Below are positions 44,917 to 53,565 of a DNA stretch of 64,000 nucleotides, in pieces. A program made the position numbers and the translations under genes. Source of the DNA: Candidatus Rokuibacteriota bacterium (GTDB lineage Bacteria > Methylomirabilota > Methylomirabilia > Rokubacteriales > CSP1-6); the NCBI GenBank assembly GCA_016184365.1, contig JACPCW010000072.1:17341-81340 (forward strand), written 5' to 3'. The notes under the pieces are model-generated. The model did not search any database. It was not told the origin of the DNA and saw nothing but the letters and a program-made list of their open reading frames with translations. How positions within the stretch are numbered: position 1 is the first letter of the stretch; every line of letters begins with the position of its first letter.

Positions 44917-45891
44917 CTATCGAATGGCGCCGCCGAGCCACCCCAAGGCGTTCGCGGCGAACACGAGCATCAGCATCAGCAGGAACACGAGGACGGCGAC
45001 ACCGCCGCGGGCCGCCCACACCATCCCGCGGCTCGGGACGAGCCGCATGGCGCGACGGCGTTTCCACTCGGGCTTCTCGCCCTCTTCCAGGTACTCGATC
45101 GCCTCCTGCACCATGCCGCCGTCGATGCGGCGCTTCGAATCCGCGTAGCCGGAGAGCAGGCAGTGGTCGCAGACGATGTTGATGACGCGCGGCGTGCCCT
45201 TGCTGTAATCCGAAATCTTCTGGATGGCGGCGTCGGTGAAGATCCCGGCGTCGGTGGCGCCGGCGACGCGCAGGCGATGACGGATGTAGAGCCGCGTCTC
45301 CTCGGGCGAGAGCGGCCCGATGTGACACCGGAGCCCGATGCGCTGCTTGAGCTGCCGGAGCTCCGGCACGTTGAGCTTTTCGCGAAGCTCCGGCTGGCCC
45401 ACGAGCAGGATCTGCATCAGCTTCTGATTCGTGGTCTCGAAGTTCGACAGGAGGCGCACCGCTTCGAGCGTCTCGATCGAGAGGTTCTGCGCCTCGTCGA
45501 TGACGATGACCGGAGACCGGCCCTGGCGGTGCTGCTCGATGAGGAACTCGTTCAGCTCGACGAGCCGCTGCGCCTGCCTCTGCGCCTGGGACTTCATGCC
45601 CCAGTCGTTCAGGATGTACTCGAGCAGGCCTTCGATCCCGAGCGCGGAGTTGTGCACGTACGCGACCGGGGTCATGCCGTCGAGCCGCTCCAGGAGCGTG
45701 CGCAGCAGCGTCGTCTTGCCCGTCCCGATCTCGCCCGAGAGGACGATGAACCCCTTCCGCTCGCGGACACCGTAGAGGAGCTGGGCCAGCGCCTCCCGGT
45801 GCCGCGCGGACTGGAAGAGGAACTTCGGGTCGGGCGTCGGTCCAAACGGCGCCTCGTGGAGTCCGTAGAACTTGAGATACATGCCCGTCAC
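44917..45891 (-). CDS. XrtA/PEP-CTERM-associated AAA ATPase (ExeA-like)
   Basis: A 324-residue protein: MYLKFYGLHEAPFGPTPDPKFLF start diagnostic of the group, Walker A GEIGTGKTTLLR near residue 55, Walker B VIVIDEAQNL, sensor LVGQPELREKL, and a C-terminal transmembrane helix (VAVLVFLLMLMLVFAANALG). It is anchored in the inner membrane and probably energises or positions the export machinery. GTG at 45891 overlaps the chain-length gene stop; ATG at 45882 is also possible. Confidence 0.95.
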   Translation of the reverse strand: MTGMYLKFYGLHEAPFGPTPDPKFLFQSARHREALAQLLYGVRERKGFIVLSGEIGTGKTTLLRTLLERLDGMTPVAYVHNSALGIEGLLEYILNDWGMKSQAQRQAQRLVELNEFLIEQHRQGRSPVIVIDEAQNLSIETLEAVRLLSNFETTNQKLMQILLVGQPELREKLNVPELRQLKQRIGLRCHIGPLSPEETRLYIRHRLRVAGATDAGIFTDAAIQKISDYSKGTPRVINIVCDHCLLSGYADSKRRIDGGMVQEAIEYLEEGEKPEWKRRRAMRLVPSRGMVWAARGGVAVLVFLLMLMLVFAANALGWLGGAIR

Positions 45892-47561
45892 CTTCTCGCC
45901 GTCGGAGTCGCATCCGGCGTCAGCAGGCCGACGAGCTCGTGGTTGCCGTACGCGATCGCGAACGTGGTGCCGACCACGGCGAGGAGGCCGATGGCGACGG
46001 CGGCCGTCGCCAGGCGGCGCTGGCGGGACAGACGCCGCAGGTCGGTCTCGGTCGTGATGCGCGGGATCATCGCGAGGATCGGCACCGGCAGCTTCGACCG
46101 CACCTCGTCGACGCGGCGGAACGACGTGTCGACGTTCTCGGCGAGGACGACGGCGGCGCCGGAGGCGCCGAGCGCCAGAACCAGACCGATCAGCAGCAGG
46201 CGGATGCGGTTCGGGCCCGTCGGCCGCTCGGGGACGACGGCCGGATCCATGATGCGGAAGTTCTCGCCCTTCTGGCGCTGCTCGAGGTCGGCGGCGATGC
46301 CGGCCTCTTCACGCTTGCCGAGCAGCGAGCGGAACAATTCCTTCGTCGATTCGTAGTCGCGCGCGATGAGCGACAGCTCGTGCTCGCGGCGCGGCGTGTT
46401 CTCGATGCGCCTCTCGTAGGTCGCGATCTGGCGCTGGAGGGAGGCCATCTGCTCGGCGCCCGTCTTCACCTCGACGTTGGCCTGGTCGACCTGCGACATC
46501 AGGCTCGTCACGTACGGGTTCGTCGGCGCCATCCGCAGCGCGGACTTCTTGTCGTCCTTCTGCTTCGGCAGCGCCATCGCCGACTGTTCCTCGGCCAGGC
46601 GCGCCTCGAGCAGGCGGATCTGGTCCTTGGTGTAGACGATGTCCGGGTAGCGGTCGCTGTACTTCGTCTGCAGCGCCGCGAGCTCCTGCTTGAGGAGATT
46701 CAGGCGCGCGGCCATGGAGCCGGCCGCCGGCGGCGCGGCCGTGGTCGCGGCGGCGGGGCCGGAGCCCTGGTCGATCTCGGCGAGCGCCTGCGTGATCTGC
46801 TGGCGGCGCTCGGCGGCGCGGCGGTGCGTCTCCTGCGCGCCCGCGAGCTGCGACTGCAGCCGCTCGAGCGTGCGGAGGTTGGCGTCGCGCTGCTCGGGCA
46901 GCTCGCCCATGTAGCGCTCCTTGTACTCGGTGACGCGCTTCTCCTGCTCGGCGAGCTTCTTCCGCACTTCCGTGAGCTGCGAGCCGAGGAAGTCGGACGT
47001 GCCGACCGCCTGCTTCTCGCGCAGCTTCACGTTTTCCTGGATGTAGAGGCCGGCCAGGGTGTTCGCGACCTGCATCGACACCTGCGGGCTCGTCGTCGAG
47101 TACGACACGGCGAAGGCCACGGTGCGCGGGTCACGGTCGCGGCGCGCGCCGGGGCGATCGCGCTCCGTCGACGTGTCCGCGAACTCGATCCTGATGTCCT
47201 TCCGCATCTTGTCCACGACGTCGTCGGGCGAGGCCGTGGCGCGGAGCTTCGGATACAGGTTGTGCTTCTCGGCGATCTCGTAGAGCCGCGTCCGCGACAG
47301 GATCTCCTGGGAGAGCGTCAGCAGGCGGCCCTCGACGTCGCTCGTGACCGTCGACTTCACGAACGCTTCGGGGATCTGCTGGCGGTCCACCATGACCGTC
47401 GCGCGTGCCGTCCAGAGACTCGGCAGGAAGAACGCGAGGGACGCGGTCGCGGTGAGGACGAAGAGAAAGGGAACGAGCGCGAGGACCTTCCGGCGCCGGA
47501 TCGTCTCCAGCAGACCGGAGAGGCCCTGGCCGCGCGTCGGTGCGTTGTCGGTAGTGGTCAT
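45888..47561 (-). CDS. Polysaccharide chain-length determinant (Wzz/GumC-like, XrtA type)
   Basis: A 557-residue inner-membrane protein: N-terminal TM at about 27-48 (VLALVPFLFVLTATASLAFFL), a large periplasmic coiled-coil region (RKKLAEQEKRVTEYKERYMGELPEQRDANL; QIRLLEARLAEEQ), the GNVR-like REHELSLIARDYESTKELFRSLLGKREEA, and two C-terminal TM helices. It sets chain length with the kinase at 43783. ATG at 47561 is chosen because GAGGTG lies six bases upstream; the track GTG at 47570 overlaps that site. Confidence 0.95.
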   Translation of the reverse strand: MTTTDNAPTRGQGLSGLLETIRRRKVLALVPFLFVLTATASLAFFLPSLWTARATVMVDRQQIPEAFVKSTVTSDVEGRLLTLSQEILSRTRLYEIAEKHNLYPKLRATASPDDVVDKMRKDIRIEFADTSTERDRPGARRDRDPRTVAFAVSYSTTSPQVSMQVANTLAGLYIQENVKLREKQAVGTSDFLGSQLTEVRKKLAEQEKRVTEYKERYMGELPEQRDANLRTLERLQSQLAGAQETHRRAAERRQQITQALAEIDQGSGPAAATTAAPPAAGSMAARLNLLKQELAALQTKYSDRYPDIVYTKDQIRLLEARLAEEQSAMALPKQKDDKKSALRMAPTNPYVTSLMSQVDQANVEVKTGAEQMASLQRQIATYERRIENTPRREHELSLIARDYESTKELFRSLLGKREEAGIAADLEQRQKGENFRIMDPAVVPERPTGPNRIRLLLIGLVLALGASGAAVVLAENVDTSFRRVDEVRSKLPVPILAMIPRITTETDLRRLSRQRRLATAAVAIGLLAVVGTTFAIAYGNHELVGLLTPDATPTARR

Positions 47562-47574
47562 GATCGACACCTCG

Positions 47575-48243
47575 TTACGGAACGACGACGACGTCGCCCG
47601 CCCGGAGCGCCAGGATGTCTTCCTGACCGCGGACCGCGCGGTTGTAGTTGAAGGACAGCTTGTGGGTGTTGCCGTAGGTGTCCTTGCGGAACACCACGAT
47701 CTTCGAGGGCGACGCGAAGTCCCGGAACCCGCCCGCCATCGCGAGGACTTCGAGGATCGACGTGTCGGCCTTGAGCTGCAGCACGCCCGGCCGGTTGACC
47801 TCGCCGAGCACCGACACCTTGTAGCTGCGGACGTCGGTCACGATGACGGAGACTTCGGGGTTCGGCATGAACTCGGCGAGCGCCCCGGCGATCTTGTCGC
47901 GCAGCTGCATCGCCGTCAGGCCGGCCGCGTGGATGTCGTGCAGCAGCGGCAGCGAGATCTTGCCGTCGGGACGGACGGGGACGGCCCTCGACAGCGTGTC
48001 GTTCTTCCAGACCGTGATCTGCAGCATGTCCTCGGCGCCGATGACGTAGTCCGTCGGCACCGCCGGCGTCACTTTCGCGGCGGGCGCGGACGGAGCGGGG
48101 GAAGCCGCGGGGGACGGCGGCGCCGTCGCCTTCGCGGCGGGGACGGCCTTCGGCGCCGGCGTGACCGGCGCCTTCTGCTGCGCCAGGGCCGGTACGGCCA
48201 TGGCGGCGACGAGCGCGAACGAAAGCACGAGGCGAGTCGACAT
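47575..48243 (-). CDS. Polysaccharide export protein (Wza-like, SLBB)
   Basis: A 222-residue periplasmic/outer-membrane export protein: signal peptide (LVLSFALVAAMAVPALAQQ), a long Pro/Ala-rich linker (residues 22-65), the Poly_export domain DYVIGAEDMLQITVWKNDTLSRAVPVRPDGKISLPLL, and an SLBB domain (KVSVLGEVNRPGVLQL). No lipobox Cys is seen, which differs from E. coli Wza. ATG at 48243 has AGGAGG upstream. It precedes the chain-length gene by 13 bases. Confidence 0.94.
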   Translation of the reverse strand: MSTRLVLSFALVAAMAVPALAQQKAPVTPAPKAVPAAKATAPPSPAASPAPSAPAAKVTPAVPTDYVIGAEDMLQITVWKNDTLSRAVPVRPDGKISLPLLHDIHAAGLTAMQLRDKIAGALAEFMPNPEVSVIVTDVRSYKVSVLGEVNRPGVLQLKADTSILEVLAMAGGFRDFASPSKIVVFRKDTYGNTHKLSFNYNRAVRGQEDILALRAGDVVVVP

Positions 48244-48271
48244 CGTGATCCTCCTCGAAGAGCTGACCGCC

Positions 48272-49714
48272 CTAGCTGGCGGCCGCATCCTGCTTGAGGC
48301 CCATGTCCTTGATCTTGTAGAGCAGGGCCCGGTAGCTGATCTTCAGCATCTTGGCCGTCTTCACACGGTTCCACCGACACTGCTCGAGCGCGCGCATGAT
48401 GACTTCACGCTCTGCTTCGAGCACCGCGCGCCGCGAGATCTCCTTGAGCGACAGGCCGCGCGACTGCGCGAACTGCTCGGCGGCCGGAGCGGGCGCGGCG
48501 GGAATCTGCGGAATGGCGAGTGAGCGGGGCAGCGTCAGGTCTTGCAGCACGATCATCCGCTTGATGAAGTTCTCCAGCTCGCGGATGTTGCCGGGCCACG
48601 GAAACGCGACGAAGGCCTGCATGGCCTCGCCCGACATCTCGCGCGCGGGCAGGTTGAACTGCCGCGCGTAGCGCTCGACGAAGTAGCGCACGAGCCCGGG
48701 AATCTCTTCGCGCCGCTCGCGCAGCGGGGGCACGACGATGTTGATGACGTTCAGGCGGTAGAAGAGATCCTCGCGGAAGCGGTTGCCGGCCACCTCGCGC
48801 GCGAGGTCGCGGTTGGTGGCGCAGATCACGCGCACGTTGACGTTCAGGTTCTGGCGGCCGCCCACGCGCGAGAACTCGCCGTCCTGCAGGACGTGGAGCA
48901 GCTTGGCCTGCAGCGCGGGATGCAGCTCGCCGATCTCGTCGAGGAAGATCGTGCCGCCGTCGGCGAGCTCGAAGCGACCGGGCTTGCGCTGGTGCGCGCC
49001 CGTGAAGGCGCCGCGCTCGTGGCCGAACAGCTCGGACTCGAGCAGCTCGCGCGGCATCGCCGCGCAGTTCACCTTCACGAACGGCGCGCGGCGCCGCGTG
49101 GAGGCGCCGTGGATCGCGCGCGCCACGAGGTCCTTGCCGACGCCGGTCTCGCCGCAGACGAGCACCGTGACGTCCGCGCGCGCGGCCTGCTCGACGATGC
49201 CCATGATGTCGCGCATCGCCGGGCTCAGGAGCAGCCCGAGCTCCCGCTGCAGCCGCTCGCCGTCGTCGCCGGCGGCCGGCCCGCTCACGGACGTCGCGCG
49301 GGCTTTCGTCGCGTGCGTCTTGATGGCGGTCTCGAGGTCCTCGGCGGTGTAGGGGCGCCGCAGGAAATCGTCGGCGCCGGCCTGGATGGCCTCGACGATC
49401 TGCGAGCTCATGCCGGTGTCGGCGATCATGATCACCGGGCCCGACTGCTTGAGCTCGCTCGCGCGGCGCAGCAGCTCGATGCCGGACATGCCCGGGAGCC
49501 GGATCGCGACGAGCGAGAGCGCGAAGCGCGTCTGGCCGATCAGCTCCAGCGCTTCCTCACCGGTCGCGGCGGCGACCGGCACGTAGCCCCAGCCCGTCAG
49601 CTGGGAAACGACACGTCGGCGCTGATCGGGCTCGCTCTCGACGACGAGCACGCAGCGTTCGTTCGGCGTGGTCACGAGCGTGGACGGGGCGGTGTCGAAG
49701 CTGGGGATTCTCAT
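48272..49714 (-). CDS. Sigma-54 activator with degenerate receiver (PrsR-like)
   Basis: A 480-residue NtrC-type activator. The AAA+ core is intact (Walker [21 protein letters not shown] sigma-54 loop, Walker B IFLDEIGE), and the C-terminal Fis HTH is [22 protein letters not shown]. The receiver has lost its chemistry: the phospho-acceptor position reads [10 protein letters not shown] (Ala for Asp), the acidic pair is ESEPD, and Lys is replaced in LRRPY. It is probably phosphorylation-independent. ATG at 49714 fits the sigma-54 promoter upstream; ATG at 49735 would leave only a seven-base leader. First gene of the long reverse operon. Confidence 0.93.
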
Positions 49715-49753
49715 GCCGGTTGGAGCCTCTGACATGCGGCATCATTCGTCGTG

Positions 49754-49768
49754 GCAAACGGCGTGCCG
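49754..49768 (-). promoter_or_regulatory. Sigma-54-type promoter CGGCACGCCGTTTGC
   Basis: On the minus strand GGCACG-CCGT-TTGC matches the consensus nearly perfectly, with ten bases between GG and GC. The predicted start near 49742 precedes the activator gene, implying that this activator or its paralogue at 53722 drives its own operon. Confidence 0.7.
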
Positions 49769-49892
49769 GACCTTCCGAACGCACCGAACGCGCGGCGGGA
49801 GACGGCGCGCGCGCGCGTGTGCTCGCGCGGACGGCTTCCCGTGAGGAGGCAGGTGCCCCTTCTCGGTAAAGCTTTGGCGCGATGGCTCGGAC

Positions 49893-51248
49893 TCATCCCG
49901 GTCGCTTGCCGCTGAGGACGAATTTCACCGTGTCGAAAATGATGCGAAGGTCGAACGCCACGGACATGTGCTTGACGTAGTAGAGGTCGTAGCAGAGCTT
50001 TCGCGTGACCTCTTCGGTCGACATCGAATAGCCCGCTCGCACCTGCGCCCAGCCCGTGAGACCGGGGCGCACCTCGTGCCGGAGGTTGTAGAACGGGATC
50101 ACCGCGGAGAACGTCACCACGTTCGAGGCCATCTCGGGGCGCGGCCCGACGAGGCTCATCTCGCCGCGGAGGATGTTGACGAACTGCGGGATTTCGTCGA
50201 ACCGGTACTTCCGGAGGAACGCGCCGCAGCGCGTGACGCGGCTCGCGTTGTCGCGCGCCCACACGCCGTCGCGCGCCGGCTCTTCCGGACGCATCGTGCG
50301 GAACTTGATCAGGCGGAACGGACGGCCGCCGCGCCCGATGCGCTCCTGGATGAAGAGGACCGGACCCGGCGATTCGAGCTTGATGAGGGCCGCGACGATC
50401 GCGACGAACGGGATCGCGCAGACGAGGCCGAGCGCCGCGACGGCGCCGCTCAGCAGGCGCTGGAGCAGGACCTGCGTGCGCGAGATCCGGAAGCCGCCGC
50501 CGAAGATGAGCGCGCTCGGCGTCAGCGACTCCACGGGGAGCCGGCGCGTCAGGCGCTCGAACGCCGTGCTGCCGTCTTCGATCGCCACGCCGCGGAAGCG
50601 GCACGTGAGGAGGTCCGCGACGGGGAGGTTCCCGCGCCGGTCCGGCATCGCCACGACGATGCGGTCGGGCCGGTGGCGGCGCACGACGTCGCCGATCTCC
50701 TCGTAGCCGCCGAGGTGCGGGCCGGTCTGCGGGGCGACGGCCGGATCGCCGACGAACCCGACGAGCGTCATGGCGAGGTCCGCGCGCGTCTGGATCTGCT
50801 CGGCGAGATCGACGGCGAGCGCGCTCCGTCCCATGATCACGACGCGCTCGGCGAACGGCTCGCGTTTCGCGAGCGTGTACACCGAGGCGCGTACCGCGAT
50901 CACGGCGCCGAGCGCCAGGAGGAGCGCGTACGACGCGGCCTGTCCACCGACGCCGAGGCCCGGGAAGGCGACGTACGCCGCCGCGAGGGCCACGGCCGTC
51001 ATGCCGAGCGCGCGCGCGAGCCGGGTGAAGACATGGCCCAGCGCGTGCGACGTCTCGAAGTCGTAGAGGTCGTTGTAGTAGAACGCGACGAGCGCCGCGA
51101 TCACGATCACGCCGAGGCGCGCGGCGAGCGTCCACGGATTCGCGAGGGCGTCGGGTGTGGGCCACAGCGACAGCGCGCCGGCGAGCACCGCGGCCGTGGA
51201 CAATCCATCGAGCCAGGCGATTCTTCTCACGAGTGACATGGTGTTCAT
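49893..51248 (-). CDS. Undecaprenyl-phosphate sugar phosphotransferase (XrtA type, EpsB-like)
   Basis: A 451-residue polyprenyl-phosphate sugar-1-phosphate transferase. It has four N-terminal helices (up to about 120), a CoA-binding-like Rossmann domain (FAERVVIMGRSALAVDLAEQI), and the C-terminal catalytic domain with a TM helix, FIQERIGRGGRPFRLIKFRTMRP, RCGAFLRKYRFDEIPQFVNILRGEMSLVGPRPE, and PGLTGWAQVRAGY. It primes synthesis by putting the first sugar on undecaprenyl phosphate. Start ATG at 51248 or 51239. A near-perfect sigma-54 promoter lies 30 bases upstream. Confidence 0.95.
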   Translation of the reverse strand: MNTMSLVRRIAWLDGLSTAAVLAGALSLWPTPDALANPWTLAARLGVIVIAALVAFYYNDLYDFETSHALGHVFTRLARALGMTAVALAAAYVAFPGLGVGGQAASYALLLALGAVIAVRASVYTLAKREPFAERVVIMGRSALAVDLAEQIQTRADLAMTLVGFVGDPAVAPQTGPHLGGYEEIGDVVRRHRPDRIVVAMPDRRGNLPVADLLTCRFRGVAIEDGSTAFERLTRRLPVESLTPSALIFGGGFRISRTQVLLQRLLSGAVAALGLVCAIPFVAIVAALIKLESPGPVLFIQERIGRGGRPFRLIKFRTMRPEEPARDGVWARDNASRVTRCGAFLRKYRFDEIPQFVNILRGEMSLVGPRPEMASNVVTFSAVIPFYNLRHEVRPGLTGWAQVRAGYSMSTEEVTRKLCYDLYYVKHMSVAFDLRIIFDTVKFVLSGKRPG

Positions 51249-51277
51249 GAGCGCGTCGCGCTCGACAGCAGAGAAGC

Positions 51278-51292
51278 GCAAGGGAAGTGCCA
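51278..51292 (-). promoter_or_regulatory. Sigma-54-type promoter TGGCACTTCCCTTGC
   Basis: Read on the minus strand, this is a textbook TGGCAC-N5-TTGC with GG-N10-GC. The predicted start is near 51266, eighteen to twenty-seven bases before the two candidate ATGs of the sugar transferase. The best sigma-54 match in the window. Confidence 0.8.
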
Positions 51293-51552
51293 AACCCCTG
51301 CAACGCGTCGCGGAAGCGCGTGATCTTGCGCGGTCTTGCTGCATCGGTGGCGCGGGGTCGAGGGGAAGGGGTCACGCGAACGGGGCGCAATTCAGCAACA
51401 CGATGCAGCGCGCGTAGGCACGCGCTTGCACCGATCCGCGCGTTTTCACATGGACTTCGCGCGCGTGAAAGAGCACTTCGTCACCCGATGTAGGGCGACG
51501 CGTTCAGTCGCTCACGCCGCGATCACGCGCGCGGTGCCGCGGTCACTCCGGA

Positions 51553-51697
51553 GGGCGAGGGGGGCGGGGGTTCGCCCGGAATTCCGCGCTCGCTCTCATG
51601 CGCTCGGCGTAGCGACCGCAGGGCATCACGCCACGCTGCGTCCGTACCGTGGTCGAAGCCAAACGGAATTCCGGACGAACCCCCGCCCCCCTCGCCC
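51553..51697. repeat. Long inverted repeat with 34-bp arms (MITE- or hairpin-like)
   Basis: Left arm GGGCGAGGGGGGCGGGGG... (51553-51586) and right arm ...CCCCCGCCCCCCTCGCCC (51664-51697) are reverse complements at 33 of 34 positions, around a 77-base spacer. Each arm contains GGAATTCCG. The unit is 145 bases with no ORF of its own. It could be a miniature transposable element or a large RNA hairpin. Confidence 0.88.
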
Positions 51698-51803
51698 CGC
51701 CGAGTCCGCACCACGCGCGTCGAGCACCGCGAGCACATGGAATACGGCGAGACATCGAGTACCACGACCGCGAGATCGGCAACAGGTCCGAGCGGGAAAA
51801 CGA

Positions 51804-51868
51804 AACGGCCCCGGGTTCATCCCGGGGCCGTTGAGCGTTGGGGGTATGGGGGCCATGTCGGGGCCCCC
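51804..51868 (-). repeat. Two-hairpin palindromic element, copy R7
   Basis: A perfect 12-bp stem AACGGCCCCGGG-TTCAT-CCCGGGGCCGTT is joined through GAGCGTTGGGGG to the core GGGGGCCATGTCGGGGCCCCC. In minus orientation it lies 17 bases after the stop of the barrel gene, as R1 and R4 do after theirs. The loop-first hairpin may end transcription. Confidence 0.92.
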
Positions 51869-51884: not shown

Positions 51885-53168
51885 CTAATCCCAGCGGATC
51901 GGGTACCCCACGAGGATGCCGACGAACACGCGGTTCTGATCGACGTCACGGCCGAGCGGCTCGCCCGTCGTCGGGCTGCGGAGCGTGCCGTCCGACACCT
52001 GGTGGAGCAGCGCGTAGCCGGCGGTGACGGCGAACCACGGCGTCATCTGGTACGTCGCGCGGATCGGCAGCGAGAACGTCTTCACGTCGATCGTGTTGTC
52101 GTGCGGCGACTCGGACGTGCGGTACTGCGGCAGCGCCTCGATCGTCAGCCCGCGCATGAGCGTGGCGACGATGACGCTTGCGCCGAACGTCTGGTTGTCG
52201 GCGATGCCGCCCAGCCCGCCCGCGGTGGTGACTTCGCGCGCGTACAGCACGCCGGTCTCGCCCCAGGCGTACCGCTTGCGCAGCGACGCGAAGAGGAAGG
52301 GCGCCACGCGCGTGTCGTCGTCGCGGAACTCGATCGTCGGGCCGCCGGTGATCGATCCCGTGAGGGTCGGCGTGAACTCGTACGTCAGGCCCACGCGGGG
52401 CGTGTGGGTGGTCGCGTCCTCTTCGTCTTCGATGTCGAAGTACGCCACCTGGTAGCCGAGCGAGCCGCGGAAGCGCGGCGTGAAGGTGCGCTCGACCTCG
52501 ACGTCACCCCGGTAGGTGTCCGAGTCGCGCAGGTCGCGCGAGTCGAAGCGCTGCGCCGTCCACGCGCCGAACGTGCGGAACGCCGTCAGCCGGTCGAGCT
52601 GCCACGCGGCGCCCGGCCGGACCGTGTTGCTCCACGCCTGGTCGCGGCCGGTCACGACGCCTTCCGGCGAGAACGCGTTCACGCCGGTGTTGAAGGTGAA
52701 CATGTCGTCGAGCGACAGCGTCAGCGTCGGATCCGGGCGGTAGAAGCTGTCCATCACGAACCGCTGACGGTCGAACCCTTCGTTGCGGTCCGGCTCGCGC
52801 ATGTACAGCCGCGCGTCGAACTCGTAGCCGACGTTGAAGCGGTAGGTCGGACGCTCGGCGGTGAACGTGAGGCCCGGCGTGAGGACGGTGATGAGATCCC
52901 AGTCGCGCCGGCGATTGTCCATCAGGACGTTGTCGTTGAACTCCTCGGCGACGCCGAGCGTCGGGGTCAGCGTGATCGGCGCGCGCAGGGGCTGCTGGAG
53001 CGGTGGCTGGCCGCCAGTGCGCGCCGGCGGCTCGGTGCCGGGCAGCGGGCGCTGCAGAAGCGGAGCCGTCTGCGCCGTCGCGAGCGCAGGAGCGACCGCG
53101 ACAGCGAAGAGCAGGGACACCACCGCAACAGCAGGCCGGGTCCGGCACCACAACGGGGCGGGGGTCAC
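51885..53168 (-). CDS. Outer-membrane beta-barrel protein (PEP-CTERM/XrtA-associated)
   Basis: A 427-residue secreted protein: signal peptide (AVAVVSLLFAVAVAPALATAQ), a Pro/Gln-rich linker, then repeated amphipathic strands (PTLGVAEEFNDNVLMDN; TYRFNVGYEFDARLY; PRVGLTYEFTPTLTGSITGGPTIEF) ending in the aromatic-terminal strand VFVGILVGYPIRWD. This is the pattern of XrtA-locus outer-membrane proteins related to surface-polysaccharide export porins. Start GTG at 53168; the ORF track extension upstream overlaps the receiver gene. It is 13 bases downstream of that gene. Confidence 0.9.
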   Translation of the reverse strand: MTPAPLWCRTRPAVAVVSLLFAVAVAPALATAQTAPLLQRPLPGTEPPARTGGQPPLQQPLRAPITLTPTLGVAEEFNDNVLMDNRRRDWDLITVLTPGLTFTAERPTYRFNVGYEFDARLYMREPDRNEGFDRQRFVMDSFYRPDPTLTLSLDDMFTFNTGVNAFSPEGVVTGRDQAWSNTVRPGAAWQLDRLTAFRTFGAWTAQRFDSRDLRDSDTYRGDVEVERTFTPRFRGSLGYQVAYFDIEDEEDATTHTPRVGLTYEFTPTLTGSITGGPTIEFRDDDTRVAPFLFASLRKRYAWGETGVLYAREVTTAGGLGGIADNQTFGASVIVATLMRGLTIEALPQYRTSESPHDNTIDVKTFSLPIRATYQMTPWFAVTAGYALLHQVSDGTLRSPTTGEPLGRDVDQNRVFVGILVGYPIRWD

Positions 53169-53181
53169 GGCTGATTCTGTA

Positions 53182-53565
53182 TCACACCCCCGGGACCGGC
53201 TGAAAGGGCTTTCTCTCACCGAGTCGCTCGATGGCACGGTGATAGTGGGTGAGCGCCGCCGGTTTCGCGATGACGTCGACCGCGCCGAGGCGCCGCACTT
53301 CGTCGATTTCGTCCGGCGTGGCGTGTCCCGTGATGACGACGACGGCGAGCGTCGGTCGCCGGCGCTTCACTTCGGCGAGGACCTCGAGGCCGTTCATGCC
53401 GGGCATCGACACGTCGAGGAACATCGCATCGACGCCGGCGTCGTCCAGCCGCTTCAGCGCATCCGCGCCCGAGTTGACGGTCGTCGTGCGATGCCCTTGC
53501 CGCGTCAGCGACTTCGCGAGCACCTCGGCCACTTCCGGTTCGTCGTCCACGATCAGGATGTTCAT
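53182..53565 (-). CDS. Single-domain response regulator receiver
   Basis: A 127-residue receiver with all key residues: acidic pair in ILIVDDEPE, phospho-acceptor Asp in AMFLDVSMPGMNG, Thr in VVITGHA, and Lys in VIAKPA. ATG at 53565 has a strong AGGAG. It is co-directional with the barrel gene and divergent from the receiver-less sigma-54 activator at 53722. It could supply the phospho-input that activator lacks, which is inference. Confidence 0.94.
   Translation of the reverse strand: MNILIVDDEPEVAEVLAKSLTRQGHRTTTVNSGADALKRLDDAGVDAMFLDVSMPGMNGLEVLAEVKRRRPTLAVVVITGHATPDEIDEVRRLGAVDVIAKPAALTHYHRAIERLGERKPFQPVPGV

Follow-up and report, generated by a model that had tools for sequence, protein, structure and literature searches.

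A dispersed palindromic hairpin repeat family with internally matching arms in an uncultured Candidatus Rokuibacteriota bacterium

Palindromic repeats between bacterial genes are known from REP sequences, whose palindromic units measure 20-40 nt (PMC3733652), and from ERIC and Correia/NEMIS elements, which, according to the work cited in PMC10969869, can sit at 3' ends and act on mRNA via RNase E or RNase III. Template switching is known to homogenise the arms of inverted repeats (IRs), maintaining hairpins and mimicking compensatory evolution (PMC8794818, PMC8604942). Here we analyse a hairpin in a 64,000-nucleotide stretch of DNA (the window) on contig C119 of a 5.58-Mb MAG (G000, 90% complete) from a Candidatus Rokuibacteriota bacterium. 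We consider it to be one copy of a dispersed, lineage-specific family of palindromic repeats that is non-autonomous and mobile-like, with template switching homogenising the arms at the DNA level, and we give this reading a probability of roughly 0.6. The hairpin and its surroundings contain the following features.

49893-51344, minus strand: sugar transferase gene (PF02397), 5' end towards the hairpin
51537-51552, plus strand: 16-nt left extension, CCGCGGTCACTCCGGA, common to the three subfamily copies on C119, C88 and C2
51553-51586, plus strand: 5' arm, G-rich, ending with CGGAATTCCG
51587-51663, plus strand: 77-nt loop, whose conserved ends (CGC... and ...GTCGAAGCCAAA) set the orientation as plus
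51664-51697, plus strand: 3' arm, C-rich, beginning with CGGAATTCCG and pairing with the 5' arm at 33 of 34 positions
51804-51832, minus strand: intrinsic-terminator-like hairpin with a T tract, belonging to the porin-like gene and lying outside the repeat, between gene and repeat
51885-53237, minus strand: outer-membrane porin-like protein gene (weak DUF2490 and Phenol_MetA_deg matches), 3' end towards the hairpin

The 34-bp arms with a single mismatch are as the original prediction described them, and the sequence that it placed in each arm is CGGAATTCCG, located at the inner end of both. A looser IR extends from 51545 to 51705, with 42-nt arms and a 90% match. The pairing is beyond chance: with ungapped scoring (match +1, mismatch -3), the best score is 30, compared with a maximum of 13 and a mean of 8.8 when the intergenic region is dinucleotide-shuffled 100 times, and the runner-up in a scan of window positions 1-51400 scores 14. 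The earlier description as a long hairpin is structurally right, with a very stable predicted fold (MFE of -106.8 kcal/mol and z of -9.87 as RNA, z of -9.98 as DNA) that none of 200 shuffles equals in stability, closed by the 77-nt loop. The sequence GGAATTCCG has 4 strand matches in the 64-kb window, all at this hairpin, where 0.38 are expected. The left extension has no matching right-side counterpart in the three subfamily copies. The distance to the sugar transferase, given before as 260 bases, is 304 bp from the start with the best codon usage (51248) or 208 bp from the ATG of the longest open reading frame (51344), and the 3' end of the porin-like gene lies 187 bp from the hairpin. The closest relatives of the sugar transferase are in Candidatus Rokuibacteriota and Methylomirabilota. 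This gene also belongs to a likely polysaccharide biosynthesis/export cluster (window positions 44917-51344), together with genes for an AAA ATPase, a Wzz/GNVR chain-length-type protein, a probable export protein, and a sigma-54 response regulator.

The search for other copies suggested in the original prediction reveals a dispersed repeat. Beside the window copy, BLASTN finds full copies on C88 and C2, at 92% and 90%, as well as divergent ones, and two covariance models (R1 and R2) extend the set to about 24 distinct hairpins, 3 of which are partial, scattered over the MAG. One subgroup carries GGAAATCC where the others have GGAATTCC. The arm sequence CGGAATTCCG occurs 36 times in G000, compared with 0 for its reversed control; some of these sites are hairpin arms, and others are single, unpaired, and coding-looking. 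Hairpins of the same plan are also present in relatives from three genera, with 1 to 7 in each genome: 3 in G002, 1 in G034, 1 in G017, and 7 in G025 (6 found by model R2 and the seventh by an IR scan). Locus L047, which scored with R1 and not with R2, was left out. No hairpin was found in G001 and most family genomes by a covariance search that scored a limited number of candidates per genome, so these absences hold at that sensitivity. Elsewhere in the phylum, matches to ATCGAAGCCAACGGAA come without such a hairpin, except in genus g16. The hairpin family is previously uncatalogued.

In G002, a genome of the same genus, and in G017, the sugar transferase gene likewise neighbours the porin-like gene, and the orthologous spacers contain no hairpin in either genome; at 58% amino acid identity, they are too distant for a base-precise empty site. 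A single copy conserved in relatives had been named as the sign of a regulatory structure; instead, the repeat is multi-copy, which rules out a single-copy regulatory structure, and the same site is hairpin-free in G002 and G017.

Each family unit of ~145 bp consists of a near-perfect stem of 32-50 bp and a loop of ~50-90 nt, with a G-rich 5' arm, a C-rich 3' arm, and loop ends that are conserved within a genome. These ends read CG...CCAA(A) followed by CGG in the window genome, ACTGACTGT...CGTACCCAA followed by CGG in most G025 hairpins, and CGC...TTAG(C/G)CCAA followed by CGG in the G002 C77 pair. The loop-proximal parts of the arms are conserved, and the outer arms vary between copies, even between subfamilies of one genome. 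Within each copy, the arms nevertheless match. Across 19 hairpins and 34 stem pairs, 92.8% of 638 cells are paired, compared with 75% after shuffling and 31-55% with the arms slid against each other. The changed cells include 105 two-sided and only 3 one-sided changes, and 23 of the 34 pairs show two-sided changes. Similarly, in six G025 copies the two arms of each hairpin show 94-100% complementarity, whereas arms from different copies share on average 71% identity (60% when shuffled). The near lack of one-sided changes fits a recopying of one arm from the other by template switching. The residual mismatches in the G000 set are asymmetric, with ~19 independent A.C events on the loop-oriented strand and 3 or 4 G.T events (p ~0.003; one G.T event is perhaps counted twice because of a register shift, C39 versus C80_16k). 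A.C on this strand corresponds to G.U in RNA of the opposite strand. This asymmetry counts against purely strand-symmetric template switching, which does not predict it, and could reflect RNA-level selection on the opposite strand.

The hairpins show a strong bias towards the 3' ends of genes. According to gene calls by a simple codon-usage script, the 21 loci with both neighbours called comprise 8 convergent, 12 codirectional, and 1 divergent gene pairs, compared with 2, 19, and 8, respectively, among 29 window gaps of at least 40 bp. All 7 hairpin loci cut by contig ends adjoin the 3' end of a gene. The nearest stop codon is often less than 50 bp away (the window copy is farther), and on C88 the 16-nt left extension of the repeat includes the stop codon and the final codons of the upstream gene. 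The genes flanking different copies are mutually unrelated, so a common neighbouring gene as mobiliser is ruled out. Eight close pairs of hairpins were found (on C22, C110, C56, C80, the start of C119, C1, G002 C77, and G025 C30), and all 8 are convergent by loop orientation; 5 of the 8 represent one amplified composite, which leaves ~4 independent cases.

Both the covariation and the location by gene ends would also be expected of a structured non-coding RNA or a 3'-UTR element (a terminator, an RNase III site, or an mRNA 3' stabiliser) maintained by selection for pairing in the RNA. This is the alternative that fares best, and it is still unlikely. The very stable predicted fold and the G.U-compatible mismatches on the opposite strand are in its favour. 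The loops, however, do not point in a consistent direction relative to the genes around them: the window copy and C1 face one way, and C2, C34, and G034 face the opposite way. Strand-specific selection therefore cannot be explained by read-through from the upstream gene, nor does read-through transcription account for the mismatch asymmetry. Moreover, the porin-like gene upstream already has its own intrinsic terminator, no T tract follows the window hairpin, no Rfam family matches at the gathering threshold, and the distribution is patchy, with none found in G001 and most family genomes at the sensitivity of the search. Particular RNA identities were rejected as well. The only Rfam matches are below threshold (EBv-sisRNA-2 and MIR8788) and typical of GC-rich hairpins, and the repeat is not itself an intrinsic terminator, as it has a 77-nt loop, lacks a T tract after either arm end, and is separate from the terminator-like site at 51832-51804.

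The original prediction offered a MITE as one identity, and the part of this idea that stands is a repeat with multiple dispersed copies in one genome. In a classical MITE, the arms would be terminal inverted repeats (TIRs) cut by a DDE transposase, with a target-site duplication. The size and the intergenic sites fit as well, and a related subfamily does lie inside elements with recognisable TIRs. These composites of ~470 bp hold a convergent hairpin pair inside GCNCGGACTATTCATGAACG ends with TA/CTAG flanks, and are often inserted directly at stop codons. The subfamily includes those on C22, C110, and C56; GCNCGGACTATTCATGAACG is present at both ends on C110, and also on C22, where one end has 3 mismatches. 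The composites in G000 are located as follows.

L018:1420-1895: composite
L043:1118-1595: composite
L007:1442-1915: composite

Of 95 Methylomirabilota genomes, 30 contain the GCNCGGACTATTCATGAACG TIR with TA/CTAG flanks, and most of its occurrences are on miniature elements that are often ~110-210 bp long with other interiors and that often directly follow stop codons. G023 and G077 contain ~30 such ends each. In relatives, an IS1380 transposase (PF13701, E of 1.9e-126) adjoins this TIR, with one end of the insertion sequence examined; IS1380-family transposases lie beside the TIR at L232 (G019:C91), L235, and L237. Judging by these adjacent sequences, the IS1380-family transposase is likely the autonomous partner of the GCNCGGACTATTCATGAACG miniature elements, and the hairpin pair inside the composite looks like cargo. 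Several genera also contain a different miniature element that bears a hairpin, has the GCNCGGACTATTCATGAACG TIR, and carries an asymmetric motif in its interior, GGGTGGCGC / GCGACAGGACCC (L142:1427-1544, L245, L246, L242, and L249).

What is not supported is a set of transposase-recognised termini for the window hairpin. The GCNCGGACTATTCATGAACG TIR is absent around 51553-51697, no genome-wide TIR match lies near this copy (C119:68893), and the other solo hairpins likewise lack the TIR, so the IS1380 link accounts for the composite subfamily only. A cognate autonomous element with matching ends is seen only for the TIR of the composites, in other genomes. In the window and solo copies, conservation is lowest at the outer ends and lies instead next to the loop, which is the reverse of what TIRs show; conserved terminal inverted repeats were thus not found, as the outer arm ends vary between copies. 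The target-site duplication proposed as a check did not appear, with no flanking duplication above chance at the window copy or other solo copies. The flanks share only 6-8-mers at scattered, chance-like distances, and the element ends are not defined. We therefore regard a classical MITE as improbable, to a degree close to that of the RNA element.

The same conservation pattern allows a more specific idea, namely an undescribed class of apex-recognised mobile hairpins. Here the machinery of transposition or recombination would act on a folded single strand by reading its conserved loop ends (GGAWTCCG...CCAA(A)CGG), and the unit would be the convergent pair. If the loop ends are what is recognised, the arms would be free to drift while still being recopied from each other. 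We hold this to be a doubtful proposal, about on a par with the MITE.

A REP/REPIN-type element mobilised by a RAYT (Y1) transposase, which would share the organisation of palindromic, extragenic singlets and inverted doublets at 3' ends, is very improbable, because the unit is ~145 nt and not 20-40 nt and PF01797 (Y1) has no match in G000 while the same search is positive in 5 of 14 control genomes, so that a RAYT-driven REP is ruled out as far as a 90%-complete genome shows.

Several other candidates were rejected. An integron attC site seems unlikely, as the conserved part of this hairpin is its apex, which does not pair in the manner of attC core sites. Spread by viruses was set aside, as exact matches to TCGAAGCCAACGGAATTCCG are absent from viral contigs. 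All arms are rich in G (51-59% G in G025) and have a G-run pattern in common, so they are not inverted copies of an insertion target.

Returning to a dispersed family with arms homogenised by template switching, we propose that the repeat may have been spread by a putative enzyme that reads either the folded hairpin or its conserved apex (GGAWTCCG...CCAA(A)CGG), and not terminal repeats; no transposase tied to the solo hairpins was found. In one subfamily, an IS1380-type miniature element would have picked up a convergent pair and then carried it along in its own amplification. The match between the arms may be kept, whether or not selection contributes, by template switching from arm to arm at replication (quasipalindrome correction). 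Copies would persist mainly after stop codons, presumably because they do the least harm there, and each copy, if transcribed, would give a very stable RNA stem.

With this family, an uncultured phylum gains a palindromic repeat family of its own. It also offers naturally occurring data from within one genome on how long, perfect hairpins are maintained, in which arms differ between copies and match internally, with hardly any one-sided intermediates. Such data allow arm copying by template switching to be separated from selection on RNA pairing, and they caution that in repeats two-sided covariation, usually taken as strong evidence for a functional RNA, can be misleading. Genome assembly suffers as well. 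In G000, hairpin or TIR elements contain at least a dozen contig ends (on C40, C44, C52, C54, C60, C68, C104, C114, C118, C119, C128, C137, and C144), so the copy numbers are likely underestimated and the assemblies are fragmented by the elements.

Among known systems, IS1380-family miniature elements resemble the composite subfamily, which has the GCNCGGACTATTCATGAACG TIR, TA/CTAG flanks, and IS1380 transposases beside the TIR in relatives, and differ from the window and other solo hairpins, which lack that TIR. REP/REPIN elements are similar in being extragenic palindromes by gene 3' ends, as singlets and inverted pairs with many copies per genome, whereas the window family has hypervariable arms of 32-50 bp, a unit of ~145 nt, and no detected Y1 transposase. 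Compared with ERIC and Correia/NEMIS elements as described, the window family has no target-site duplication found, a conserved apex instead of conserved termini, no Rfam match at the gathering threshold, and a host from another phylum; it shares with them the form of 100-200 bp intergenic palindromic repeats in tens of copies. Our analysis suggests that, as an interspersed palindrome, the window repeat resembles ERIC, Correia, and REPIN elements in how it works; membership of any of these three is not supported.
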